DNA of 64,000 nt from Vulcanisaeta distributa JCM 11216 (GTDB lineage: Archaea > Thermoproteota > Thermoprotei > Thermoproteales > Thermocladiaceae), in the NCBI RefSeq assembly GCF_001315985.1, contig NZ_BBBI01000002.1, forward strand, positions 124,001-188,000, given 5' to 3'. Shown here piece after piece: positions 22,185 to 52,163 of this stretch; position 1 is the stretch's first letter; each line of letters starts with the position of its first letter. A model generated the notes under the pieces. The model saw nothing but the letters and a program-made list of their open reading frames with translations, was not told the origin of the DNA and ran no database searches. A program made the position numbers and the translations under genes.

Positions 22185-23209
22185 ATGGGGGGGCTTGCCT
22201 CATTTCTAATTAGAAGAGGCATAAACATGGTAATAACGGTGCTTGGAGTGATCTTCATAATGTTCATAATAACACACGTAATAACACCAAACCCAGCGGT
22301 TGCATGGGCAGGTCCACACCCTGTACCATCAATAGTTGAGGCAATAACTAAGGAGTACCACCTAAATGACCCCCCCGTATATGTTCAATTCTACTACTTC
22401 TTAATAGCCGTATTTCAGGGCAATTGGGGTGAGGACCCAATGTATCATCAACCAATAATACAATTAATTGACGCCTATTTCCCAAGGACACTTGAATTAA
22501 CAATAGCCGCCATGATAGTAATAATAATTCTGGGGATTTTAACGGGCGCCATTGCAGCAGTACGTAAGAATACTCCAACCGATTACACGATTAGGGCGTT
22601 TTACCTAGTGACTTGGTCAATGCCGCCATTTCTGGTTGCCATGCTTCTTCAATTAGCCATAGCCTATGGATTAAGGTTATTACCAGCCACAGGCCTCGCC
22701 AATCCATTATTACCCCCCCACCAAAGCCAATAACTGGAATGCCAACGATTGATGCCTTGATAGAGGGCGACTGGCCATACTTCTGGTCAAGCCTTAGGCA
22801 CTTAATACTACCAGCAACCGCATTGGCGCTTGTGGCCTTTGGCATAATTTCAAGGTTGATTAGGAATAGCATGATTGATATTGCCTCAAAGCCATTCATA
22901 AGAACCGCAATAATGAAGGGGGGGCTTAGGGATAGGGATGTGGTATTTAAGCACATGCTTAGGAATGCATTAATACCCGCAATAACCGTATTGGCACTAA
23001 CCTTTGCCTCGTTACTCGCCGGCGCGGTGGTTATCGAGGATGTGTTCTCATGGACGGGAATGGGATGGCTACTAACACAGGCATTATATCAACAGGATTA
23101 CCCATTAGTAATGGCTGGTACCTTCATCGTTGCGGTTGGTGTCGTAATCGCGAATTTGGTGGCCGATATACTTTATGCGGTTGTAGATCCTAGAATTAAA
23201 CTCGAGTAG
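22185..23209 (+). CDS. Oligopeptide permease, DppB-like (frameshifted)
   Basis: Starts M-G-G-L-A-S-F with the first helix, FPRTLELTIAAMIVIIILG in the middle, and the EAA-type loop KHMLRNALIPAITVLAL. The frame breaks at the C7 tract at 22712, where five Cs restore LLPPPKPITGMP. Three more seven-base tracts (22186, 22372, 22918) add a Gly or Pro to otherwise normal positions (for example KGGLRDRDVV). Part of the peptide uptake operon. Confidence 0.88.
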
Positions 23210-24152: not shown

Positions 24153-24730
24153 GTATTGTATCAATGAAAACAATCAGTAAGGATGTCCCTCATCAAATCT
24201 CAGGGTCTAGGGACTCATCATAAACATGACCAATAAGTTTACACATGAATATATTGATTTCTTAACTAAACGAAAGCTAAACACTACGTATACTAGTATG
24301 GGTCAGACTTGCCAGGTGATCAGCATCGAGTCAGCCAACCCTCTCTCGTCACCGCAAACGCTCATTACCCACGCACTTAAAGCCTTTACTCCAGGGAAAT
24401 AAAAATCAGCAGTGGTCTTTCACTTCACAGATCCGATACTGGGCCCTCATCACGAAATATTCATATTCACATCACAATTTATGCCCTTCTGTTTAACTCC
24501 GCAGAGCTCATCATGTTTAGTCGGAAGCGTAATCACGAACTGCCTACTGAACCTGGCAATAATCATGCCTTAATTACAAAGCCTTATTTGAGGCTCTCCA
24601 AGGAGTAAGTTTAACTCCAGCTCATCCATCAGTATGGGTACTAGTATAGGGCTTAACTAGGTTGTATAGTATGCGTAATTATTGGCTTATATGCACGATG
24701 CATTGCGCCTATATGCATGGCTCGGAGGGG
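24153..24730. other. Non-coding or decayed stretch before the integrated element
   Basis: About 580 bp without a convincing ORF on either strand. It contains two loosely similar tactagtat/gtactagtata patches (about 24289 and 24640) and stop-rich reading frames. It could be remnant mobile DNA; nothing specific can be claimed. Confidence 0.4.
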
Positions 24731-24785
24731 GGGTTGAACAAGGATTTGGTGGGCCCGGTGGGATTTGAACCCACGACCTACGGGT
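24731..24785 (-). repeat. Left attachment repeat: 3' half of tRNA-Trp
   Basis: 55-bp direct repeat, 54/55 identical to 33759-33813. On the minus strand it gives the 3' strand of the anticodon stem, variable loop, T arm, acceptor 3' strand and CCA of tRNA-Trp, plus 16 bp of 3' flank. The 5' half of the tRNA is absent, so it is not a gene. The single mismatch is at 24745, just outside the CCA. Interpreted as attL/attR of a tRNA-targeted integration. Confidence 0.85.
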
Positions 24786-24923
24786 TAAGAGGCCACAAAA
24801 ACGAGAAGGCAACAATCAACACCTCGGGAATGGAGCCCACGATTGATAAGTAGTTGAATTTCAATTACCCAACCAATTGTAAGCCGACCACGCTCATTCC
24901 AGCCCCACGGGAAGCTAATTAAC

Positions 24924-25211
24924 TTGCCCAGGCGTGGCTTTACAGCCATGATGAGCCAGGTGATGGAAAGGGCTAGGGAGTTAATACGCGAGGTTGGTGG
25001 CTCACTCATAATCCTTAAGCCCGTGAGGAATGGGAACCAGTACGTGGCTAAGCCCATTGATGAGACTGGCGAGGCACTACTCGAGATGGCCCGTGGCATG
25101 TACCTGAATGTGTTAATCATAACTGAGGATGGGCAAATAGGCTTCATCGCCAAGGCATCCGCATTCCATGGGAAGCCTGCGATATACCTGCCAGGAGGTT
25201 GGGTAAGTTAA
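24924..25211 (+). CDS. Small hypothetical protein of the element
   Basis: 95 residues from TTG 24924, or shorter from the ATGs at 24948/24951. Reads like one alpha/beta domain (VMERARELIREVGGSLIILK, MYLNVLIITEDGQIGFI). No family recognised. First ORF inside the left attachment repeat, followed by a strong hairpin at 25268. Confidence 0.5.
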   Translation: MPRRGFTAMMSQVMERARELIREVGGSLIILKPVRNGNQYVAKPIDETGEALLEMARGMYLNVLIITEDGQIGFIAKASAFHGKPAIYLPGGWVS

Positions 25212-25267
25212 TCGAGAGGTACTGGCTTGAGGACAAGTCATTATTATGCGTGATAAGCATATTAAAG

Positions 25268-25291
25268 AGCCCCGGCTGAGCCGGGGGGGCT
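25268..25291. terminator. Asymmetric GC hairpin (C4 versus G7 arm)
   Basis: 5' arm AGCCCCGGC, loop TGA, 3' arm GCC-G7-CT. The 3' arm would be a perfect complement if its G7 were G4. It sits between a plus-strand and a minus-strand gene end, a plausible bidirectional terminator. Relatives are at 28191 and 32574. Confidence 0.6.
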
Positions 25292-25297
25292 TGCGTA

Positions 25298-25672
25298 TTA
25301 AAATATATGTAGTAGACTATGTCCAGCTAGCTCGTTTAGGACATCCCTTAAGGTGGCTATGTCGTATACCACAATGAGTGTATTGAGCTCATCATTATCA
25401 AGCCTATAAAGCGCGTAGCCATCCTTTACCTTATTAGGAGCCTTATTCGTGAATACCTTAAACACTTTACTCACTATATTAAACCTCCAGGAGAGGAGCG
25501 CGTCGTTCAGCTTATCGAGGAAGTCTGCCGCCGCCTTCACAGAGCCTTTATTAAGTGGTACTACCACCATGTCGAGGGTCTTCACATCATTATCCCCCCC
25601 AATTACCTCCTTAAGGTCAAGTAGGTGCTCATCAACCTCCTCAAGGGGCTTCCCCTCATTTATTAAGTCCAT
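25298..25672 (-). CDS. Hypothetical protein of the element
   Basis: 124 residues, acidic and helical, with no recognisable motif (KAAADFLDKLNDALLSW, YRLDNDELNTLIVVYDIA). The ATG is preceded by an unusually strong Shine-Dalgarno-like aggaggagg about 7 bp upstream, unlike the mostly leaderless genes of the window. It follows the 25737 gene in the same direction, probably in one operon. Confidence 0.5.
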   Translation of the reverse strand: MDLINEGKPLEEVDEHLLDLKEVIGGDNDVKTLDMVVVPLNKGSVKAAADFLDKLNDALLSWRFNIVSKVFKVFTNKAPNKVKDGYALYRLDNDELNTLIVVYDIATLRDVLNELAGHSLLHIF

Positions 25673-25736
25673 GAATACCTCCTCCTGTATACTCCTTACA
25701 CTATAGCCGATAATCCATGACGACTCACCCTACCGG

Positions 25737-26006
25737 CTAATACGATACTATCAAACGGCCCGAAATACCCAAGCCCTTAGCCACGTCATCCCTCACCTCC
25801 TTAATCCTCTCCATATTAATCTCTAACCCAATGGCCCTTAACAACCCCCCCAGCACCTCATCTGTGGATATATCCTTCGCCGTCACTATGTACTCAATGA
25901 TTACCTTCACGGGCTTACCACCAAGTCTCTTCACCACCCTCTCAATTTCATCCCACTCCAAAAGAACCTTCAATGCGGTCTCCACTATTACTGACTCCAT
26001 ACCCAA
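25737..26006 (-). CDS. Hypothetical protein of the element
   Basis: 89 residues with two halves: a helix followed by VKVIIEYIVTAKDIS, then RAIGLEINMERIKEVRDDVA. No family recognised. Same strand as 26056 and 25298, spacing about 50-60 bp, so probably co-transcribed with them. Confidence 0.5.
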   Translation of the reverse strand: MGMESVIVETALKVLLEWDEIERVVKRLGGKPVKVIIEYIVTAKDISTDEVLGGLLRAIGLEINMERIKEVRDDVAKGLGISGRLIVSY

Positions 26007-26055
26007 ATAATTCTATTCACACTAGATTTAATATATTACTATCCTTTACAAATCG

Positions 26056-26817
26056 TTAAACCCTCCTCAATAAGTTACTCTTTTTGAGGTTGAGAATTAT
26101 ATCCTTAACTTCCCCCCCCGCGAATTGTGCTGGATTCACGTCCTGCGGCGTGTATATAACGCCCCCCCTTCCACTAATGAGGATTTGCATGTCCTTCTTA
26201 ACATTCTTCAACGTTATTGCACTGATAACCCCACCGCGTTTTATCAAGTCTTTAGTGACCTCGGAACCCTCAAGCTCCTCACCCCACATAATACTACCCT
26301 TAAGCCTAACGTCTGGTAAATCCCTAATCACAATCCAATTTAACTTACCAAGCCTCTGTATTTCCTCAATAAATTCGTGTGGATTCTTGAAGCTAATTGT
26401 GACTTTAGGGAGACTTGAAACTCTAAGTCTCTTTAAAACGCCCTCGAATTTCGGTAATGCCTCTGACTTATCAGAAATCGCTAGTAGCACATCATTTAAT
26501 TCTTGATTATTATAGGGATATAGGTACACCGTATATTTTTCCTTAACAGGCCATTCACCATTGATTATCGGCACGGAATTTATCGCCTCAAAATTCACGA
26601 TTAGGTACTCCTGCCCCCCCTGCATCAATGCTTGAGACTTAACCTCAATATAGAGGGGGGGTACGGAAATGGGGGGGTTCCTAATCCCATCAACATCAGG
26701 AATCCTCACCATCTGTTTATGATACTCGTACTTCTCGGTAATACTCCTCAACTTATTAATAAAGTCATCCCTATCGCTTAAGTCCCTGAAGAATAGTATC
26801 CATGCAATTGTCGGCAT
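26056..26817 (-). CDS. Hypothetical protein of the element
   Basis: 253 residues, soluble, mixed alpha/beta (YTVYLYPYNNQELNDVLLAI, LNWIVIRDLPDVRLKG, DMQILISGRGGVIYT). No nuclease, helicase or HTH motif was seen. It contains several Gly or Pro pairs encoded by seven- or eight-base tracts (26111, 26161, 26615, 26648, 26671), an unusual concentration. First gene of a three-gene minus-strand operon. Confidence 0.5.
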   Translation of the reverse strand: MPTIAWILFFRDLSDRDDFINKLRSITEKYEYHKQMVRIPDVDGIRNPPISVPPLYIEVKSQALMQGGQEYLIVNFEAINSVPIINGEWPVKEKYTVYLYPYNNQELNDVLLAISDKSEALPKFEGVLKRLRVSSLPKVTISFKNPHEFIEEIQRLGKLNWIVIRDLPDVRLKGSIMWGEELEGSEVTKDLIKRGGVISAITLKNVKKDMQILISGRGGVIYTPQDVNPAQFAGGEVKDIILNLKKSNLLRRV

Positions 26818-26950
26818 TATTAAACAAGAAGTTCTAAGGATTATTAAAGCTATTTTTAATAATAGACCAACTCGGCAGTACCAAGACCCTACTTCCCGAA
26901 AACTCCAGCCCGCTGACTAGGCTTGGCTTAAGCCATATTATAACCGAAAG

Positions 26951-26975
26951 CCTCGCCCTTCAGGGCGGGGGGGAG
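26951..26975. repeat. IS200/IS605-like terminal hairpin relic
   Basis: CCTCGCCC-TTCA-GGGCG followed by G-rich sequence and AGG resembles the CGCCCTTCAGGGCG hairpins at the ends of IS200/IS605-family elements. The arm is extended by a G7 tract. No transposase or TnpB ORF is next to it, so it would be a solo end. Resemblance is from memory of the family, not from alignment. Confidence 0.35.
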
Positions 26976-27042
26976 GAGATAAGTTATTTTATCCATAGTA
27001 CCTTATAACCCCCCCACAGTTAATATTAACTCCAGTGGTTCT

Positions 27043-27364
27043 ATGCCTCATCACGACTCAGAACCCCCCCAAGGCCCAGCACCAAGTAATCCGGGGGGAG
27101 GCTGGTATTAAAGCCTCATCAGTTGGCTTAAGTGATAATACACAAGCAAATACGGCGAGGCTAATTAAAGCCCAGGCCGGGCTTGGCGTTAGCATGGAGG
27201 TGGTACTCGAGTGGATGGATATAGAGTGCCCCCCCAATGGCGTGGTTAGAGTCCTCGGGAACAGGAAGGCAAATGCCTACTTCATTGAGGAGGGCTTCAT
27301 ACTCGTTGTTGGGGAGAACGCATTGGAGAGGGTTAGGGAGATTGTGTGTAGGGAGCCAAGCTAA
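27043..27364 (+). CDS. Hypothetical protein of the element (frameshifted N-terminus)
   Basis: The well-formed part is VSMEVVLEWMDIECPPNG to the end, with KANAYFIEEGFILVVGENAL. Reading the G6 at 27094 as G5 joins it to an ATG at 27043 (MPHHDSEPPQGPAPSNPG), giving about 106 residues. Unknown function; followed at 33 bp by the AbrB-like gene, probably an operon. Confidence 0.45.
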
Positions 27365-27397
27365 TTAGCAAGCCATGCCTCAAAAGCACGAGGAATT

Positions 27398-27691
27398 ATG
27401 AAGGTGACGGACATCAAGATCGCAAGGGTCTACACGAACAAGGCGATTAGGATTGGGAGGAGGGAGTACAGGCCAGGCGAGGAGGTCACTGTCATGATAG
27501 CCACGAAAAGTGGCTCAATTGTCAGGTTCAAAGCCAAGGTCGTCCAGTGGTCTGGCGGTCAGTACGTATACATACCACGAGCCATAATGAGAGCTTACAA
27601 TATTCAGGTCGGCGACGAGGTTATAATCCTCTCGACCTCAGCGAGTAATGAGGCTACCCTACGACCCCCCCTTGGGGTTAATACCAGGTAA
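27398..27691 (+). CDS. AbrB-like swapped-hairpin protein
   Basis: 97 residues. The C-terminal half GGQYVYIPRAIMRAYNIQVGDEVII matches the AbrB/SpoVT pattern (strand, IP..., hydrophobic helix, GD-V-I), typical of antitoxins and chromatin-like regulators; the N-terminal half may be a second beta unit. Its 3' end overlaps the convergent winged-helix gene by about 90 bases, so the exact stop is uncertain. Confidence 0.55.
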   Translation: MKVTDIKIARVYTNKAIRIGRREYRPGEEVTVMIATKSGSIVRFKAKVVQWSGGQYVYIPRAIMRAYNIQVGDEVIILSTSASNEATLRPPLGVNTR

Positions 27692-27915
27692 GTCCTAGTC
27701 CTCCCAGTCTCCTCAACCCTCCTCTCCACGACCTCCACAAGCCCGTACTTCTGAAACACTACAAGTATCCTAAACCAACCAGCCCCCCCACCGAGGTGGA
27801 TACTCCTCTTTAGGTAGGTGAAGTCTGCCTCCCCCCCACCAGCCTCGTGGAGAGCCACGAGGGCTTTAACCCCCCCCGTGACGCTTAGTTCCTCCCAGAA
27901 TTCCAGGAGCACCAT
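27604..27915 (-). CDS. Winged-helix transcriptional regulator
   Basis: 103 residues with a winged-helix layout: GGVKALVALHEAGGGEADF, then a recognition-helix region GAGWFRILVVFQKYGLVEVVE, wing RVEETGRTRTYLVLTPRG, and a final helix. LTPRGGRRVASLL probably was LTPRGRRVASLL; the extra Gly is from a G7 tract. Convergent and overlapping with the AbrB-like gene; likely a regulator of the element. Confidence 0.7.
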   Translation of the reverse strand: MVLLEFWEELSVTGGVKALVALHEAGGGEADFTYLKRSIHLGGGAGWFRILVVFQKYGLVEVVERRVEETGRTRTYLVLTPRGGRRVASLLAEVERIITSSPT

Positions 27916-28055
27916 TCACACCCACCAGTTCACACTGGGAATCCTAGTTTAATGTGTAACTGCACAAGGCACGCCCGTAGGCACGAACATACCCTTTGTG
28001 TAGTTGAACAAAAAGCTTATAAAACCCAAGTGCAAAGTGCAAACTTGAAAATTTT

Positions 28056-28181
28056 ATGGCACTAGACCAGACCCAAGGAGTTGAGAATAAATGTCTCGAT
28101 GAATTACCAAACTTCCTCAACAAATTCATCTACAACATCAGGGGGGGTACCAGTTTTATCATTTTAAACTACCCCAAGTGA
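28056..28181 (+). CDS. Small ORF (41 aa) with promoter and hairpin
   Basis: MALDQTQGVENKCLDELPNF..., ending ILNYPK. A TATA-like gcttataaaa lies at 28014-28023, about 35 bp upstream, and a GC hairpin follows 10 bp after the stop, so it is a complete transcription unit despite its length. The G7 tract at 28141 encodes a Gly pair. No family recognised; it may be the end of a broken longer gene. Confidence 0.4.
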   Translation: MALDQTQGVENKCLDELPNFLNKFIYNIRGGTSFIILNYPK

Positions 28182-28190
28182 GGAACCTCT

Positions 28191-28213
28191 AGCCCCGCTT
28201 CGCCGGGGGGGCT
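28191..28213. terminator. GC hairpin with G7 arm
   Basis: AGCCCCGC, loop TT, CGCC-G7-CT. Same design as the hairpins at 25268 and 32574; here the 5' arm has lost one G relative to them and the 3' arm carries G7 rather than G4. It separates two plus-strand genes. Confidence 0.5.
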
Positions 28214-28234
28214 TTACTATGGGGGGGTGGCTCC

Positions 28235-28891
28235 ATGGGTAGGGAGGCGTTGGTAGTGCTCCTTAGGAGCCTTGTTGTGGAGTACCTTGGGAGGAGCCCG
28301 TGGGTTGTTATTACTTCCAGGCGTATTACTAGGTTTCTTGTCAAGTATGGGTTTAGGCATGGTCGTTGGGAGTACATTATTATTGAGGGTGCCTTGAGGT
28401 GCCTTGCTGGTAGGGTTGGTGGTGTTGATTATACCCGCAGGAGTGCTGGTAGGGTAGGTTCGTTATTGCCCTGCCAGCTAGTGTTATTGGTATGGATGGC
28501 TTGTTCCTCGAGTGTGTTGATTACGCCCTCTCGAGGGTGCCCGAGGGCGTGAGGGCTAATTACCTAGGGCCCTCCTAGGGCCTTGTGGAGGGCTTGTACA
28601 GGCTTGTCAATGAGTTCGTGAGGTACGTCATTAACGAGCCTAGGTTTAGGGTTAATATTAAGCGTGGGGGGGACTCGATGATTAAGTTCAGCACTAGGGA
28701 CTTCCTTGAGTGGCTTGGGTCTAGGGGGGCTTTATCATTGGTAATAATGATGTTCATAGTATTACACTGAGGTTCAGTAAGTACCTTCCCGAGTCCTCGA
28801 GGTCAATGGGTACAGGCTAGCCCATAAGAGGCGGTACTGGAATGGCCACAATTCATACACCTGGTACTACATAATGCGGGATACTAATTAA
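28235..28891 (+). CDS. Hypothetical protein of the element (several frameshifts)
   Basis: Three overlapping segments in different frames read as one protein: MGREALVVLLRSLVVEYLG...RFLVKYGFRHGRWEYII, then LVEGLYRLVNEFVRYVIN and DSMIKFSTRDFLEWLGSRG, then YRLAHKRRYWNGHNSYTWYY ending at 28891. Shape (basic, helical, aromatic C-terminus) could be DNA-binding. No family recognised; at least three indels are needed, several at G runs. Confidence 0.4.
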
Positions 28892-28914
28892 CCCCCCCAA
28901 ATCCCCAACCAATC

Positions 28915-29491
28915 GTGCCCCCTTATAATCCACTTTGATGGGGGCCTGCGAGCCCAAAAACCCAGGTGGCGTTGGGACCTACGGCTTCCTAATCCTTGAC
29001 GAGAAGGGCAATACGATACATGAGGGTTATGGGATTGCCTGCGAGCCAGGCCCAGGCTGTACGAATAATATTGCCGAGTACACGGGCCTAGTCAAGGCCC
29101 TGGAGTGGCTTGTGGGTAATGGCTACAGTGCTCTAGGATTATAATACGCGGTGACTCCCAACTCGTGATTAGGCAATTACTGGGCGAGTACGGTGTTTAC
29201 TCTAGCCGATTAAAGCTCCTCTACGAGAGGGCTCTTGAGCTATTAGGCAATTTCAATGCTGAACTCGAGTGGGTTCCAAGGGAGGAGAATGCGAGGCTGA
29301 TGAGTTGAGTAAGAGGGCTTACATTGAGTACCTTGACAGGCACCCCCCCGAGCTCGTTAATGCCCTCAAGCCCTACCTAGCCACAGAGAGGCAGGTTAGG
29401 CTTCTTAAAAGGCTTGGGGTTGAGCCTCGTAGGTACTTGAGTAAGGCGGAGGCTAGTAGGTTGATTAGTAGGTTGTTGGGGGAGTCGTTAG
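28915..29491 (+). CDS. rnhA: RNase HI with C-terminal extension (frameshifted)
   Basis: Archaeal type RNase HI, which cuts RNA in RNA/DNA hybrids. Catalytic pieces are present: FDGACEP start (after reducing a C5 to C4 at 28918 and a G5 to G4 at 28938), the Glu in NNIAEYTGLVKALEWL, the Asp in IIIRGDSQLVIRQLLGEYG, and EADELSKRAY. GTG 28915 is the likely start. After the fold comes a small domain TERQVRLLKRLG...SKAEASRLISRLLG. If the G5 near 29478 is read as G4, a TAG at 29489-29491 ends the gene just before a hairpin. Confidence 0.75.
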
Positions 29492-29493
29492 GT

Positions 29494-29518
29494 GCCCCCC
29501 CGCCCCCCCTGGCGGGGC
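29494..29518. terminator. GC hairpin (C7 versus G4 arm)
   Basis: 5' arm G-C7-GCC, loop rich in C, 3' arm GGC-GGGG-C. Perfect if the first C7 were C4. It lies between the end of the RNase HI gene and the end of a minus-strand ORF, consistent with a shared terminator. Confidence 0.5.
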
Positions 29519-29523
29519 ATTGG

Positions 29524-29775
29524 TTAGGTGATACTAATGTTAAAGGCATTGAGTTCCCTAAGGAGCTTGATTGCCTCACCTGCATTACCGAATTCCGTAA
29601 TCACCTCGATTATCGAGCCCTTGGTAAGCACCACGAGGCCTCTCTCGGGCATGTATATGATGGATTCATCCTCATCAAGGTACACGTCATGATTGTTATT
29701 AATCAACGCCTTGAGAGGCTCAGGGCTTACTACCTCTGCCTTAATCCTCAATAGTGGCATGAATCGGCTTGGCAA
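29524..29775 (-). CDS. Small hypothetical protein of the element
   Basis: 83 residues; the core NHDVYLDEDESIIYMPERGLVVLTKGSIIEVITEFG reads as a real beta-rich domain. An antisense plus-strand ORF over the same bases is judged a shadow. Downstream of nucS on the same strand with about 10 bp between them, so probably co-transcribed. No family recognised. Confidence 0.5.
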   Translation of the reverse strand: MPSRFMPLLRIKAEVVSPEPLKALINNNHDVYLDEDESIIYMPERGLVVLTKGSIIEVITEFGNAGEAIKLLRELNAFNISIT

Positions 29776-29786
29776 GAGGCTCCTAA

Positions 29787-30479
29787 TTAGCTCGGGGGGG
29801 GAGCCTCCTCAACAAGCTTGAAGCCGTATTTTCGAGCAAGCTCCCTGGCTCCAGAGGTAAAACAGGGAGCCACTAGCAAGCCCTTGGCCTTTAGGGCTTC
29901 TGTATACCTCTTCAATTGGCTTATAGCCTGTAGGTCAGCACACTGGCGCTTGACCTCAATAACCCACTTGGCACCATCTGGGGGGGTTGTGGCTATAATA
30001 TCGGCAATCCCAAAGCCCGGCACCTCGTACTCAATGCCGATGACCCTACCACCTGGCAGGTACTTTCCAATATTATTGGCGATATAGAGCTTCAAGTCAT
30101 CATGAGTACCCCTCAACTCGAACCTGCCCTCGCTTGGTAATCCCCCCCAGCAAGCCCACTCAACCTCGTAAATCCTAATCCTAACCATTTCCCTTGGCCT
30201 CCTCCTGATTGCCACGAGCTCAAGCCCCCCCTGCTGGCTTTGCAGGATTGTTACCCTGGAGCCAGGTGGTTGCCAATTGAGCGGTTGGTAGCCCTCGCTC
30301 GTGTGTATTAGTAATGAGCCATCGGGCTTGATTATTATTAATCGCCAAGCCCTATTAGCCCTTGATGATGCCCTACCATCATAGTAAACCTCACAGTCAG
30401 CGTATAGGACGATGACTGCCCTATTTAATTGGCTTTGCCAATCAGCACCACAGGGCATGCCCCCCCTGGCTGGCTCCAC
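29787..30479 (-). CDS. nucS: Endonuclease NucS/EndoMS
   Basis: NucS, the archaeal (and actinobacterial) mismatch- and branch-specific nuclease working with PCNA. N-terminal DNA-binding domain: CEVYYDGRASS, LIIIKPDGSLLIH, LNWQPPGSRV, RRRPREMVRI. C-terminal PD-(D/E)XK domain: FGIADIIATTPP (Asp), WVIEVKRQ (Glu, Lys), ISQLKRYTEAL (Gln), GLLVAPCFTSGAREL. Start is GTG 30479 or the in-frame ATG near 30458. The C-terminus EAPPPS is encoded by a C8 tract. It lies inside a tRNA-bounded element rather than in an obvious core-gene context. Confidence 0.93.
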   Translation of the reverse strand: MEPARGGMPCGADWQSQLNRAVIVLYADCEVYYDGRASSRANRAWRLIIIKPDGSLLIHTSEGYQPLNWQPPGSRVTILQSQQGGLELVAIRRRPREMVRIRIYEVEWACWGGLPSEGRFELRGTHDDLKLYIANNIGKYLPGGRVIGIEYEVPGFGIADIIATTPPDGAKWVIEVKRQCADLQAISQLKRYTEALKAKGLLVAPCFTSGARELARKYGFKLVEEAPPPS

Positions 30480-30735
30480 GCCTAATTAGGGCGTTAGCTG
30501 TGGGATTCGTCGCGACCCATTGTTCCTTTTACCCCCCCCTCTTGGGGGCTTCCATAGTGTCATGCCCCCCCGAGCTAGTTATAAGTCCTTTCATTACTAA
30601 TTTCCAGTAGTACACCGTAATTATAATGCCCAGGGTCTTGATTACCGGAAGCTTGAAAGAGAGGACTGAAAGTCCATAAAAAGGAAATACATGATACATT
30701 TTTATACCCCCCCGCTTTATTATATAAAAAGAAAG

Positions 30736-31029
30736 ATGGATATGGCTGAAACCAAGATAAAGCCCATTAAGCTTCCGAGGGGAGTTATTGCGTATACTTA
30801 TGGCTCCGCGGTTGCCAGGATGTACGAATTCTTGAAGTACGCGCTCTTGAATAATAGGAGGAAAGAAGTCGAGGAATGCGTGAGGATTATCGAGTCTTGG
30901 AAGAATAGTGATAATCCAGAGGAGAGGAAGGCCTACGGATTGTTCATGTGGGGGGGTCCATATAAAGAACTCTATAAGAAAGCTAAGAAATACCTAGAGG
31001 AATCCTCTGGACTTGAGCTAAGTGTATAA
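30736..31029 (+). CDS. Small basic helical protein of the element
   Basis: About 97 residues from ATG 30736: MDMAETKIKPIKLPRG, then helices (YEFLKYALLNNRRKEVEECV, YKELYKKAKKYLEESSG). Lys/Arg-rich; possibly nucleic-acid binding. MWGGPYKEL has a Gly pair from a G7 tract. A/T-rich ttatatacc-like and tatataaaa sequences at 30700-30727 supply the promoter. No family recognised. Confidence 0.55.
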   Translation: MDMAETKIKPIKLPRGVIAYTYGSAVARMYEFLKYALLNNRRKEVEECVRIIESWKNSDNPEERKAYGLFMWGGPYKELYKKAKKYLEESSGLELSV

Positions 31030-31074
31030 AGTAGCATGGTTAAATAATTATACACATACATATAAGGTGATGTT

Positions 31075-32120
31075 ATGGCCTCTAGGCTTGGGAGTTGCAT
31101 ACCCATTGTTGAACGCATTCAACGCTTTATTAGGGTTAGAACCCGTGAATTCCTTGAGGAACTCATTCTAACGTTCACATGCGATAAAGTCGCTAATTAC
31201 GTATGCTTCGAGAGAGTACGTAATAATGCAGGCACTTACCTTGCTAAGTTAAACGGCGACTACGTATTGATTGAGAGGGTTATAGGTCCAAGTAATGAGA
31301 TCCTAAGCGTACTACCCAGTGATTTCGTCCAGAATGTACTAGGGCTCAGCCCAGGCAGTAATTATATATGCATAGCCATGCATGTTGATGCAAATGAGTA
31401 TTATACGGTTAGGTTTCATTTACGTAGACCCATTGAGCCCATACCCATGCATGCGTTTACCCAAGCATTAAGGAGGATGGTAGCTTCATTACGGCCGCAT
31501 CTTGCTTACATGATTATTGATACGATAACCACGCTCAACGCACCGTCAAATGCGCAGAAGCAGTACGTGTGGGTGTTGCTTGATGAGGAACACATGGATT
31601 TTAGGAAAGAGGACATGGAGATGGAATTGAATGGAATGAAAATGTTTAGTAGTTCTGTAATAAGTAAACTTGAAATCTTGGATTTTTCGCCAAAGAGCCT
31701 TGCATTCTCATTTGAAATAAACCCTAATACTGGGCCCATAACCTATAGCTACTATATTATACTTAGTTCATTTCATAGGCCATTCTCTTGGGCTTATTAC
31801 ATCACCGGTATTGGCGTCACTGCATTGGCACTATTCCTAGTAATCATGGGCCTCCTAAAGCCGATGGAGGCATACATGAATTACCTAATCGCAACCGCAC
31901 CAATACTAACAACGCTCATATTGCTAATACTCAGTAGTTACCTAATCCTGCCTAAGGATGTACCTTCAACACCAAGCTCATTGCGTTTCTGGTCCTAACC
32001 GACACGTTATTAATAATTGTATTGACATTACTCGTTATAGTTAAGATACTATACCCTACCATTATTAAATTGGCGTGGCATTTTATAAATATTCTTCTTG
32101 GCGCTGAGGGCAATAAATAA
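31075..32120 (+). CDS. Hypothetical protein with C-terminal membrane helices (frameshifted)
   Basis: A soluble N-terminal region of ~240 residues (FIRVRTREFLEELILTF, IMASLRPHLAYMIIDTI-like) precedes helices ITGIGVTALALFLVIMG and LIATAPILTTLILLILSSYL; after a one-base frameshift near 31965 it continues TKLIAFLVLTDTLLIIVLTL to a stop at 32120. About 348 residues. Unknown; possibly a membrane sensor of the element. Confidence 0.5.
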
Positions 32121-32306
32121 TGTGATGCAAAGGATGGATTAAAACCGATAAAAAGCGAAACCGCTAGAATCCTGCCTAAGTCCCTAATTACCGTTTTCGT
32201 GTCTACCTTAGAATTCAATGGGTATGTATCGAAGAAGCCCCCTTAACTTCAAGGGCTTTACAGGCCTGGTGTGGTTAGGTTCCTAGCCTAATTAGTGAGG
32301 CTTGTA

Positions 32307-32607
32307 ATGGGGGGGCTTGTGATTTGGCTCTGGTACTTTGACCCGCATCCAGAGGACTTAGAGCTAATGACTAGGTTACTTGTGTACCTACTTGGTACTG
32401 TGGATACCCTAGTCATTGCCAGGCACGGCTCCCAAGCCTAATCACCTACAGGGCTAGGGCATTCGGGGGGGACTTGGTCTTCATCCACAAAGCCCCCCAG
32501 TGGATGGGATTAGCGAATTCATTAGGGACTTGAGGAGCAAGGGCTTGAGATTCGGTAGGATTGTACTCGTGAAAGCCCCCCCGGCATTGCCGGGGCTAAA
32601 CGGCTAG
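32307..32607 (+). CDS. Hypothetical protein of the element (broken frame)
   Basis: Starts at ATG 32307 (GLVIWLWYFDPHPEDLELM, LLVYLLGTVDTLVIARHG); after one missing base near 32430 it reads LITYRARAFGGDLVFIHKAP, and after another slip VDGISEFIRDLRSKGLRFGR to a stop at 32607. About 100 residues, alpha/beta, Rossmann-like rhythm. The final codons run into the hairpin at 32574. Confidence 0.35.
32574..32597. terminator. Asymmetric GC hairpin (C7 versus G4 arm)
   Basis: 5' arm AG-C7-GGC, loop ATT, 3' arm GCC-GGGG-CT. A perfect palindrome if C7 were C4: the mirror image of the hairpin at 25268, in which the G arm is the long one. Positioned between convergent ORFs. Confidence 0.6.
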
Positions 32608-32826
32608 TGCAATTACTACAGTCATTATTAATAGTACAGTCGCTAGAGTGATGTGTCTCCCAGTCATGAGGCTTATCAACCACACGGCTAGCATTATCAC
32701 TGTAAGTGTGGTTAGTATTATTGAGAAGCCCGGAGCCATTGAGGATGCAATGGCAGTTGTGATTAGTAGGGCTATGTAGGATAGTACCAAGCCCCCCCAA
32801 TTCGGCACGGGCTTTTTAATCGGCAA
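32596..32826 (-). CDS. Small two-helix membrane protein of the element
   Basis: 76 residues: basic start MPIKKPVPNW, helix LSYIALLITTAIASSM, helix LTTLTVIMLAVWLISLM, then HITLATVLLIMTVVIALAV. Small hydrophobic proteins like this are common in crenarchaeal plasmids and viruses. No family recognised. Confidence 0.5.
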   Translation of the reverse strand: MPIKKPVPNWGGLVLSYIALLITTAIASSMAPGFSIILTTLTVIMLAVWLISLMTGRHITLATVLLIMTVVIALAV

Positions 32827-32862
32827 GGCCCTAATTAGATTGGCTTAACCCCCCCCGTAATC

Positions 32863-33246
32863 GTGAGCATTGGAGTCAAGTACCTAGAGCCCGAGGATGG
32901 CTTCCTAGTCATAATGAGGAACACTGTAGACATCCACAATGAGGATGACGTGATTAATATGAGGATTGAACAATTAAACTGCCCCTATGGCTTGCTAAGT
33001 GATTCCGAGACAGTAGTCAATGAGCTGGTGGACATTGTGAATGCCGAGGGCATTATTATAGCCTACCGCCTCAGGAAGCCAGCCATAGACCCACTCAAGC
33101 TGGGCTTGAGCCACAGGGATTATGAAGCTCACTTCACGAGACCAGTCCTGGTCTGGGTTGGGCACGAGGGCGATAAGCCAATAAGGCTTGGCAAGCTACT
33201 AAGGGGCTTCCTGGGCTTTAGGAAGCACGCCTGTTTTCTCGCTTAA
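32863..33246 (+). CDS. Hypothetical protein of the element
   Basis: 127 residues from GTG 32863, beta-rich at the start (GVKYLEPEDGFLVIM), with SDSETVVNELVDIVNAEG and YEAHFTRPVLVWVGHEG. Its 3' end overlaps the 3' end of the truncated integrase on the other strand by about 48 bases, marking a likely recombination junction. No family recognised. Confidence 0.5.
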   Translation: MSIGVKYLEPEDGFLVIMRNTVDIHNEDDVINMRIEQLNCPYGLLSDSETVVNELVDIVNAEGIIIAYRLRKPAIDPLKLGLSHRDYEAHFTRPVLVWVGHEGDKPIRLGKLLRGFLGFRKHACFLA

Positions 33247-33669
33247 GCCCTTCAAACGCTTTGCCTTTATGAACTCGTTTATTTCCTCTTTACTGACTCC
33301 ATACATGCCCTGCATTGCCATTAGGTAGTCACTCAGGTACTCCTTGACAAGGCTTAGTAGGAACTCCCTAAGTGCTGGGTCTACCCTGGCAGTGGCGACT
33401 ACACGCACAACGTCATCGAATGATGCCCTCCTCTCTGGGACTATACCCTTAAGCAGTAGTGCCAGCTCCTGGTCATCGAGGAACCTAAGGGCTTGACAAA
33501 GCAAGCCATCACCAACCCTAACCTCACTCCTCCTGACCTTCCCAATGTACGAAGAATCAACGCCGAGGTCACGGGGCTTAACACTCTTATTATTAATTAG
33601 GTATAGGATTATTTCCCTTCGTTGCTTGGGATTGACCTGGTCAATGTCGGTGAGCTGACAATCAACCAT
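33199..33669 (-). pseudogene. Tyrosine-recombinase integrase, N-terminal fragment
   Basis: 156 residues. The N-terminal HTH-like part (YLINNKSVKPRDLGVDSSYI, KVRRSEVRVGDGLLCQAL) and the segment EINEFIKAKRLKGLSEKT resemble the leader and core-binding domain of archaeal integrases. The frame ends a few residues after SEKT and no R...HxxR...Y catalytic domain follows on either strand, so the gene looks truncated by rearrangement. It starts about 105 bp from tRNA-Trp and points inward, the usual place for an integrase. Confidence 0.5.
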
Positions 33670-33758
33670 TGACTAGTCAGTGAGTGGCAGGCACGTATTT
33701 AAGCCTTCCGCGAATGAATTACATGAAGATCGGGAATGATTCGGTTACGAAGTATTTA

Positions 33759-33813
33759 GGGTTGAACAAGGAATTGGTGGGCCCGGTGGGATTTGAACCC
33801 ACGACCTACGGGT
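33759..33813 (-). repeat. Right attachment repeat within tRNA-Trp
   Basis: Partner of 24731-24785 (54/55 identity). It overlaps the 3' half of the intact tRNA-Trp, from the anticodon stem 3' strand through the CCA and 16 bp beyond. The match stops exactly at the anticodon loop, typical of integration sites in tRNA genes. Confidence 0.85.
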
Positions 33814-33853
33814 CTGGAGCCCGCCGCTCTGGGCCTTGCTGAGCTACGGGCCC
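33775..33853 (-). tRNA. tRNA-Trp (CCA anticodon)
   Basis: Cloverleaf on the minus strand: acceptor GGGCCCG/CGGGCCC, D stem GCTC/GAGC, anticodon stem GCGGG/CCCGT with loop CTCCAGA (anticodon CCA), variable loop AGGTC, T arm GTGGG-TTCAAAT-CCCAC, discriminator A, encoded CCA at 33775-33777. No intron, although many archaeal tRNA-Trp genes have one. Serves as integration target for the element to its left. Confidence 0.93.
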
Positions 33854-49293: not shown

Positions 49294-49369
49294 AGCCGGG
49301 TCGTCTAGCGGCCAAGGATGGCGGGCTTTGGACCCGTTGACCCCGGTTCGAATCCGGGCCCGGCTACCA
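49294..49369 (+). tRNA. tRNA-Gln (TTG anticodon)
   Basis: Acceptor AGCCGGG/CCCGGCT, anticodon stem GCGGG/CCCGT with loop CTTTGGA (anticodon TTG), T arm CCCGG-TTCGAAT-CCGGG, discriminator A and an encoded CCA at 49367-49369. No intron. Its 3' flank shares about 17 bp with the 3' flank of tRNA-Trp (see findings). Confidence 0.92.
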
Positions 49370-49541
49370 ACACCGAGTCATTCCCGATCTTCGCATCAAC
49401 TCCCCATACATTGGGAAGGTTAGGACGGATGAGGCGCACGTCAGTAACAGCTTGCTTTATGAAGCCCCCCCTAGGTTCCTCAATTATAGGAATTGACACC
49501 ACCTCTCAAGGGCGTCGTGCTTGAAAGGAAGGCAACATTTA

Positions 49542-49706
49542 ATGATAAGCCAAGGTGTTCCAGAGAGCATCGTGAATATACTCCGGGGCAGGGCTCCACC
49601 CATTGAGCACCGAGTCTTAGTCGAGTATTATTGGTCACTAAGACACGAGGAGCTAAGGCAATGGTACCTAAGGCACGTACCGTGCTACTGTGCTTGTGAA
49701 AAGTAA
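49542..49706 (+). CDS. Small protein with YWSxRHEELRxWYLRHxPC motif
   Basis: About 54 residues from ATG 49542: MISQGVPESIVNILRGRAPP, then YYWSLRHEELRQWYLRHVPC and CACEK. A second copy of the motif is near 51985-52070. Cys-rich end may bind metal. No family recognised. Confidence 0.5.
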   Translation: MISQGVPESIVNILRGRAPPIEHRVLVEYYWSLRHEELRQWYLRHVPCYCACEK

Positions 49707-51532: not shown

Positions 51533-52163
51533 TCATTACTATCAGCCAAGGGGTGACTTCCATGGCGGGCGGCCCTCATTTGCCGCCGCCGTGGAGTGGA
51601 TGAACCCCCCATTCTCATATTTTAAATGTTTGACGCTAAGACCCTTTTGTAAATGATGAGCTGAACAAACAACGACAGTCCGCTACTTGTGGCATATTAG
51701 TAGTTGTGCAAAGTTATTAATGACCGCAATATATTGTATATTAGAGATTGAATGAGCCTCCAATTAGATGCTGGGTATCCTCGTATCATGACCACCATCA
51801 CTTGGATTGAAGTTTATGAATCGCCTGTGAATAGAAACGCGTTGGCAACCAAACATGTTCACAATCTTTAGGGCCAAACTTAATGAAGCCCGTGAATCAG
51901 TTGGGGGGGTAACTGTTTCACGGGTTGTAATTCCCGCCTACGAATCGCCATAAAACAAAAGGCTCCTGGCACCAAGTGAGTATAATTGATTGAGAACTAC
52001 TGGAGCCCGAGGCATGAGGAGCTTAGGGATTGGTACCTGAGGCATGCACCGTGCCTGCTTTGCCGGTGATTTTTGCGGTGGTTCTTGAGTTACCGCGTCC
52101 CCCCCCACCCTAACCCCCCCAACCACCCAACCAAACCATACAACACAAACACCACACACCACC
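51533..52163. other. Degenerate region with gene scraps and an A/C-only tract
   Basis: No intact gene. It holds a copy of a 32-bp dispersed repeat (51858-51889), a fragment encoding YWSPRHEELRDWYLRHAPC near 52000-52060 (related to the small protein at 49542), and a stretch from about 52098 to 52168 made almost only of A and C, directly abutting the first CRISPR repeat. Confidence 0.45.
51858..51889 (+). repeat. Dispersed 32-bp repeat, copy 1
   Basis: Matches 53402-53433 at 30 of 32 positions (ttcacaatctttagggcc and the following bases). The two copies lie on either side of the CRISPR array. In copy 2 it abuts the start codon of a minus-strand gene. Confidence 0.7.

Follow-up and report, generated by a model that had tools for sequence, protein, structure and literature searches.

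A probable deletion derivative of a pNOB8-type element in the tRNA-Trp gene of Vulcanisaeta distributa, with a far end that appears to record another tRNA

The occupied and the empty integration site

The window analysed here is a 64-kb stretch of the genome of Vulcanisaeta distributa JCM 11216 (C2:124001-188000 of G000, a genome of 2.42 Mb in 65 contigs), in which a 9-kb block of DNA lies between two copies of a direct repeat, one of them overlapping an intact tRNA-Trp gene. Beside this tRNA gene, and on the same strand, stands an open reading frame (ORF) for the N-terminal part of a tyrosine integrase. The comparison set consisted of 25 genomes of the family, G000 included, with 11 other genomes of the same genus. 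The features at the two ends of the block are as follows (window coordinates):

33775..33853, minus strand: intact tRNA-Trp(CCA), the target gene, rebuilt at the integrase-side junction (ARAGORN, Rfam)
33759..33813, minus strand: attL, the integrase-side copy of the 55-bp repeat (repeat search, blastn)
33728..33745, minus strand: arm motif ACCGARTCATTCCCGATC, between the tRNA and the integrase
33199..33669, minus strand: truncated integrase, by its sequence of the pNOB8 type; codons 1-146 homologous (33669-33232), then 10 unrelated codons; without the catalytic domain
24785..24809, minus strand: element arm of attR, which reads GTGGCCTCTTAA, an anticodon loop of the tRNA-Lys(CUU) type
24731..24785, minus strand: attR, the distal repeat copy, a displaced tRNA 3' half with 16 bp of flank

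A preliminary description of this DNA had proposed a nine-kilobase element integrated in tRNA-Trp, and when the repeat was measured again the same values were obtained: the copies at 24731-24785 and 33759-33813 are identical at 54 of 55 positions and lie 9,028 bp apart. A repeat search of the window paired 24731-24794 with 33759-33822 at this spacing (9028), and blastn within a 14.5-kb stretch recovered the same pair with an E-value of ~4e-25, so that chance is not its source. The repeat is indeed built of the tRNA 3' half plus flank, namely 39 bp of tRNA-Trp, which start shortly after the anticodon and extend to the encoded CCA, and 16 bp downstream. The claim that the tRNA is complete at one end only also stands, since both ARAGORN and Rfam call tRNA-Trp(CCA) at 33775-33853 (minus strand) and neither calls a tRNA at the distal copy (24731). 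The block thus has the intact tRNA at one end, the 3' fragment at the other and the direct repeat that characterize tRNA-integrated elements.

The empty site that the preliminary description had suggested looking for was found in two relatives. In G002 the left flank matches 24172-24728 (557 bp, 90%) and the tRNA-Trp match begins 12 bases later, an unoccupied join that is visible in an alignment of the three junctions; in G003 a single 79-bp alignment (84.8%) crosses the join of flank and tRNA, the main left-flank match of that genome ending 2.5 kb away from it. Some 0.75 kb separates the left flank from tRNA-Trp in G001 and G004, and among the candidates scored (at most 12 per genome) no element DNA was matched in this interval. 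The two flanks fall on different contigs in G005, and in G006 the contig stops 24 bases beyond a match that extends 49 bases past the tRNA, so an element is possible there; the other five genomes of the genus yielded no usable flank pair. Among the best candidates of each genome (at most 12), none had element DNA at the tRNA-Trp site. Together with the integrase N-part adjoining the tRNA on the same strand, the empty sites of G002 and G003 support site-specific integration, and our confidence, judged from these sequence comparisons, that the block is a site-specifically integrated element is high.

The truncated integrase and a related tRNA-Lys(UUU) element

Two properties of the element were absent from the preliminary description: the truncation of its integrase and the tRNA-Lys-type loop at its distal end. 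The integrase N-part matches residues 1-146 of a 430-aa integrase of G004 at 84%, and there the match stops. The G004 protein has the Phage_integrase and archaeal phage integrase domains and contains YELR, whereas in the window the catalytic domain, and with it the series R..YxxR..Y, is absent; no C-part was found anywhere in the element, and Pfam gives nothing significant for ORF 33669-33199 alone. The N-part contains no run of seven G or C residues, and on sequence grounds our confidence in the truncation is good.

The pNOB8-type elements are defined by an integrase gene beside the rebuilt tRNA, on the same strand, and by a 40-50-bp attachment site at the 3' end of the tRNA; the integrated conjugative plasmids of the Sulfolobales (pNOB8) resemble our element in integrase family, in the layout of integrase and tRNA and in that site (PMC8371274, PMC3293823). 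The gene in the window likewise lies beside its tRNA, on the same strand and unsplit by the attachment site, but is truncated at codon 146. Homology to plasmid integrases over the full length is found for the intact G004 relative only, the window protein covering residues 1-146. Among the 18 plasmid records matched by the G004 integrase, 12 are aligned over at least 80% of the query, with 33.7-36.7% identity, and all 12 come from Sulfolobus, Saccharolobus or Acidianus (Sulfolobales); the record of the pNOB8 host stands at 35.6%. Phages gave six weak, partial matches (0/6 over 80%), and none of the viral contigs encodes a relative. The integrase can accordingly be assigned by homology and gene layout to the classical, unsplit pNOB8 type. 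Unlike the pNOB8 plasmids, the window element has no detected catalytic domain, transfer gene or replication gene, and the HerA-like ATPase of its G004 relative is without a match among 72,556 plasmid records.

The N-part is matched in 14 of the 25 genomes, G000 included, and the nine named loci of the integrase family place pNOB8-type elements in Vulcanisaeta, Caldivirga and Thermocladium. A review table of pNOB8-type elements lists Sulfolobales only, and a partial survey of the open-access literature found no paper on such elements in these three genera. Three loci from another genus of the family (L039, L041 and L048, in G012, G014 and G015), and perhaps also G013 C82, encode an ABC-transporter permease (BPD_transp_1) that is joined in frame to a relative of the integrase N-terminal domain; this is perhaps a domesticated piece of such an element.

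The closest relative of the window element is a 46.4-kb element in tRNA-Lys(UUU) of G004 (C1:1204433-1250906), delimited by a perfect 45-bp repeat with copies 46,429 bp apart. It encodes the complete integrase, a methylase-like protein and a 750-aa protein with no family assignment; T2SSE, KaiC-, MoxR- and HerA-like proteins scored above the cut-off, and ParA- and vWA-like matches fell below it. The two elements have both attachment arms in common, and with them the N-part of the integrase and six other genes or parts of genes. Beyond codon 146, the reading frame of the window integrase continues into the 3' end of the gene at 32863-33246, the G004 relative of which lies 37 kb from the integrase in the same convergent orientation. 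This gene has also lost its last part; the junction is seen from both sides and looks as a deletion would leave it, and an internal deletion is the simplest cause of the missing catalytic domain. Most likely the window element is a stranded deletion derivative.

The distal end and its possible origins

The repeat of the window begins two bases after the anticodon. In the anticodon loop tRNA-Trp has CTCCAGA, whereas the distal copy has CTCTTAA, as in tRNA-Lys(CUU). Over the final 7 nt of the arm, six positions agree with the Lys(CUU) gene and three with the Trp gene, and the 24 nt before the shared block are identical at 20 positions to the arm of the G004 tRNA-Lys(UUU) element. Apparently a Lys-type element entered tRNA-Trp via the shared tRNA 3' half; our confidence in such a change of tRNA target is moderate. 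The event would be ordinary in kind and its present state unusual, with the derivative stranded and another tRNA apparently recorded at its far end.

We consider it very probable, taking the explanation as a whole, that this is an integrated pNOB8-type element, internally deleted, whose Lys-type site entered tRNA-Trp. The incoming element would have carried an attachment site of the tRNA-Lys type, and strand exchange on the 3' side of the anticodon, where the two tRNA genes have a block in common, would have brought it into tRNA-Trp. An internal deletion would have fused codon 146 of the integrase to the truncated 3' end of a gene that lies 37 kb off in G004, leaving the element stranded and unable to excise alone, unless a related integrase in the cell could act on its intact sites. 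Among related archaeal integrases the tRNA genes used as targets are known to differ, and elements are known to become stranded at secondary sites that are mismatched (PMC8371274).

The arm motif ACCGARTCATTCCCGATC, putatively an integrase or promoter site of this subfamily, occurs exactly in the window at tRNA-Trp and at tRNA-Gln (49372), with 0.02 occurrences expected even when up to three mismatches are allowed, and in the 25 genomes exact copies are restricted to those two sites and the tRNA-Lys(UUU) of G004. With two mismatches allowed, the motif gave 9 matches, 3 of them exact, as against 24 for the reversed pattern, and exact copies alone were used for that reason. The sequence TTCAA just after the tRNA was similarly tried as a general scar of earlier elements; among the first 30 loci of each search, with repeated flanks counted once, it was present in 3/24 flanks of G003 and 6/27 of G004, and was rejected because it occurs in G003, which has no match to this integrase. 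The tRNA-Gln region is a second, decayed integration within the same window: at 49294-49706 the tRNA is followed by the exact arm motif and pieces of the integrase family (residues 34-60 and 377-431), and a further C-terminal piece lies 2.2 kb on, at 51947-52066.

Several observations weigh against the explanation we prefer. The T-loop and the discriminator base are of the Trp type, not the Lys type, in both copies of the repeat, and the 16 bp outside the tRNA are also common to both, so that one must add either conversion of one copy by the other or a site that was a hybrid beforehand; the attachment site is a hybrid, and the step from Lys to Trp requires a crossover or gene conversion to which we assign no position. 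The N-part has a dN/dS of ~0.05 relative to G004 (our own Nei-Gojobori count, in which dS is saturated and the differences lie mostly at silent sites), which indicates no decay of its own and leaves room for a kept function. In G002 the match extends over no more than the 557 bp closest to the junction, and the dpp genes to the left of these gave no match. In comparison with the gene order of G004, the NucS-like gene and its neighbour at 29524-29775 are inverted relative to the rest, and the pair at 30691-31998 has its relatives outside the G004 element, those of G006 lying inside a 19.6-kb element in tRNA-Arg(UCG); the window element is therefore also a mosaic.

The conserved N-part also bears on a rather unlikely alternative, namely that the element is a mobilizable passenger without an integrase of its own (cis-mobilizable, or a satellite), whose sites are used in trans by other integrases and whose N-domain may help or regulate. 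This would agree with a reading frame that has stayed open and conserved, with repeats intact at 54 of 55 positions and with the exact arm motif, and G000 does have three further integrase N-part loci, on contigs C6, C12 and C24, of which that on C6 lies beside tRNA-Lys(CUU), with the two integrase parts (N and C) in two frames and with a separate repeat spaced by 8,953 bp. However, these other integrases are only 39-52% identical over the N-part, and no difference between occupied and unoccupied sites was seen within the species. Improbable, in our judgement, is an origin by homologous recombination between a Lys-type and a Trp-type element, giving a hybrid with mismatched ends. It accounts for the Lys-type loop at one end and the Trp-type sequence at the other, and modules are common among elements of this family; but recombination between integrated copies would move the chromosomal flanks, and the sequence beyond 24731 is what natively flanks tRNA-Trp, as in G002 and G003. 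The flank argument does not touch the version in which the partner was a free circle bearing a Lys-type site.

An N-terminal integrase fragment adjoining a tRNA also recalls the SSV-type (suicidal) elements, whose integrase is split by integration to leave int(N) at one end. To this we give almost no credence, and it was rejected because the far end has no integrase C-part; moreover, the repeat lies upstream of the integrase start rather than within the gene, and the full-length G004 relative beside tRNA-Lys(UUU) is unsplit. The putative provirus ArcVen-P3 (9.5 kb, in tRNA-Ser, with repeats of 55 nt) is similar in size, repeat length and kind of target, but it has an SSV-like split integrase and virus-related genes, whereas the window element has a truncated integrase of the pNOB8 type and no structural virus gene was found in it (PMC4158269).

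Paired ends were sought in 14 tRNA-side stretches, including the window's own, some of which are short at contig ends, and a repeat was obtained in 8/14. In four of the eight the repeat takes in the anticodon and ends at most 3 bases from the called tRNA end: G004 Lys(UUU) (45/45), G002 His (42/42), G006 Arg(UCG) (47/47) and G000 Lys(CUU) (46 columns with one gap, 8,953 bp apart). The last belongs to an element of nearly the same size as ours (C6:73776-82770, L097), with the N- and C-part of its integrase in two frames. Two tRNA-Arg(CCG) pairs have weak repeats with a different loop (G006, 87.5% over 40; G005, 94% over 35) and were left out as unproven, although that of G005 could be another mismatch. 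A foreign tRNA signature at the far end thus occurs in two of six paired elements, that of the window and one in tRNA-Gly(UCC) of G004.

The Gly(UCC) element (G004 C1:2085608-2101224; L104, L195), with its integrase beside the tRNA, displays this pattern more clearly than the window element. At 15.5 kb from Gly(UCC) lies a fragment identical over 74 nt, intron included, to the 3' part of a gene at 1584544 that ARAGORN labels as tRNA-Leu with an intron, and which we name Gly(GCC) on account of the loop and of a resemblance to the Gly(UCC) gene. In G008 the tRNA-Gly(UCC) has a different intron and no element; the DNA after it matches the flank that lies beyond the fragment in G004, in an alignment that is gappy near the join. 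As the flank is native to Gly(UCC) and the fragment is of the Gly(GCC) type, the exchange would have occurred in the last 24 bp, which the two have in common, provided that the intron was not already present in the old Gly(UCC) gene. In Caldiarchaeum, a proposed pNOB8-type event at tRNA-Thr similarly involved an attachment site carrying a tRNA intron; there the target tRNA gene gained the intron at a 1.8-kb insertion, whereas in G004 the fragment of another tRNA marks the far end of the element (PMC3293823).

With the unoccupied site serving as control, the window element is apparently an archaeal element seen after it had switched its tRNA target, and the distal repeat offers a way to read the former host tRNA of such elements. 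It is possible, and we suggest it tentatively, that, in Vulcanisaeta, elements of the pNOB8 type switch target through strand exchange within the 3' part (T arm and acceptor end) common to many tRNA genes, keeping the anticodon loop, or even the intron, of the former host tRNA at their far end and so moving tRNA 3' halves and introns between tRNA genes. Intron transposition among the tRNA genes of Thermoproteales has reportedly been proposed; through attachment sites that contain half of another tRNA gene, intron included, an integrase-borne route becomes testable, and if this is true the elements would be a vehicle for tRNA intron movement in that order. A limited survey of the literature found no record of a target switch within the attachment sites themselves.

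Assembly artefacts and gene content

The preliminary description had also seen a distinct style in the enclosed DNA. This is in part an artefact of the assembly, as runs of seven or eight G or C residues occur throughout the window (143 in 64 kb), yet with 38 in the 9-kb element they are denser there. C runs of 5, 6 and 7 number 11, 2 and 75 in the window. In 66 comparisons at its seven-residue G/C runs the relatives have four residues in 46, five in 11, six in seven and seven in two (a comparison was dropped if fewer than 11 of the 16 flanking positions matched, as were alignments shorter than 400 columns; G002, itself affected, was kept). At chosen loci of 11 genomes, a peak of seven-residue runs is present in G000, G002 and G022 and absent in the other eight, among them the nearest relative, G006, and the run at 22713 breaks dppB; a biological origin was rejected on these grounds. 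The excess looks technical, a sequencing or assembly error, and some broken reading frames are due to it.

The other genes of the element, from the integrase side to the distal end, are:

32863..33246, plus strand: protein gene, 66% to the G004 gene at ~1242.1-1242.6 kb, its C-terminal end also missing at the same junction
31075..31998, plus strand: protein hydrophobic near its C-terminus (by eye), with relatives at 146 kb in G004 and inside the G006 tRNA-Arg(UCG) element
30691..31029, plus strand: small gene, partner of 31075..31998 in G004 and G006
29787..30479, minus strand: NucS-like endonuclease (NucS_N, NucS_C), 65% to a gene of the G004 element
29524..29775, minus strand: small gene, 58% to a gene of the G004 element
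28929..29754, plus strand: RNase H-like gene in three frames, broken in this assembly
28585..28770, plus strand: gene fragment homologous to the G004 gene at ~1244.5-1245.0 kb
27604..27915, minus strand: small protein with a PHROG transcription-regulator match that is not significant (E 0.3)
27398..27691, plus strand: MazE/AbrB-like regulator, just under the Pfam cut-off, its G004 relative above it
26056..26817, minus strand: orphan ORF without family
25737..26006, minus strand: orphan ORF
25298..25672, minus strand: orphan ORF, all family matches under the cut-off
24858..25211, plus strand: gene beside the distal end, 36% to the gene in the equivalent, distal position of the G004 element

The family scans (Pfam, PHROGs, PADLOC) covered 10 ORFs of the element, with 25737..26006 outside them. 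In these ORFs Pfam and PHROGs revealed no transfer or replication gene, and neither VirB4/HerA-type nor pilus genes, so the content is not that of an integrative conjugative element. RNase H was the sole PHROGs match at E < 0.001. A provirus was rejected, with structural (capsid) genes in 0/10 ORFs and no integrase relative in viral contigs, as was a defence island (PADLOC hits in 0/10 ORFs). The element also contains a hairpin, GCCTCGCCCTTCAGGGCGGGG, at 26950-26970, which has near copies in many genomes of the family and presumably resembles the ends of IS200/IS605 elements. Finally, the intergenic sequence at 24499-24633, outside the element, is a dispersed repeat with an 81% copy at G000 C1:53891-54024 and a 77% copy in G006 C5.

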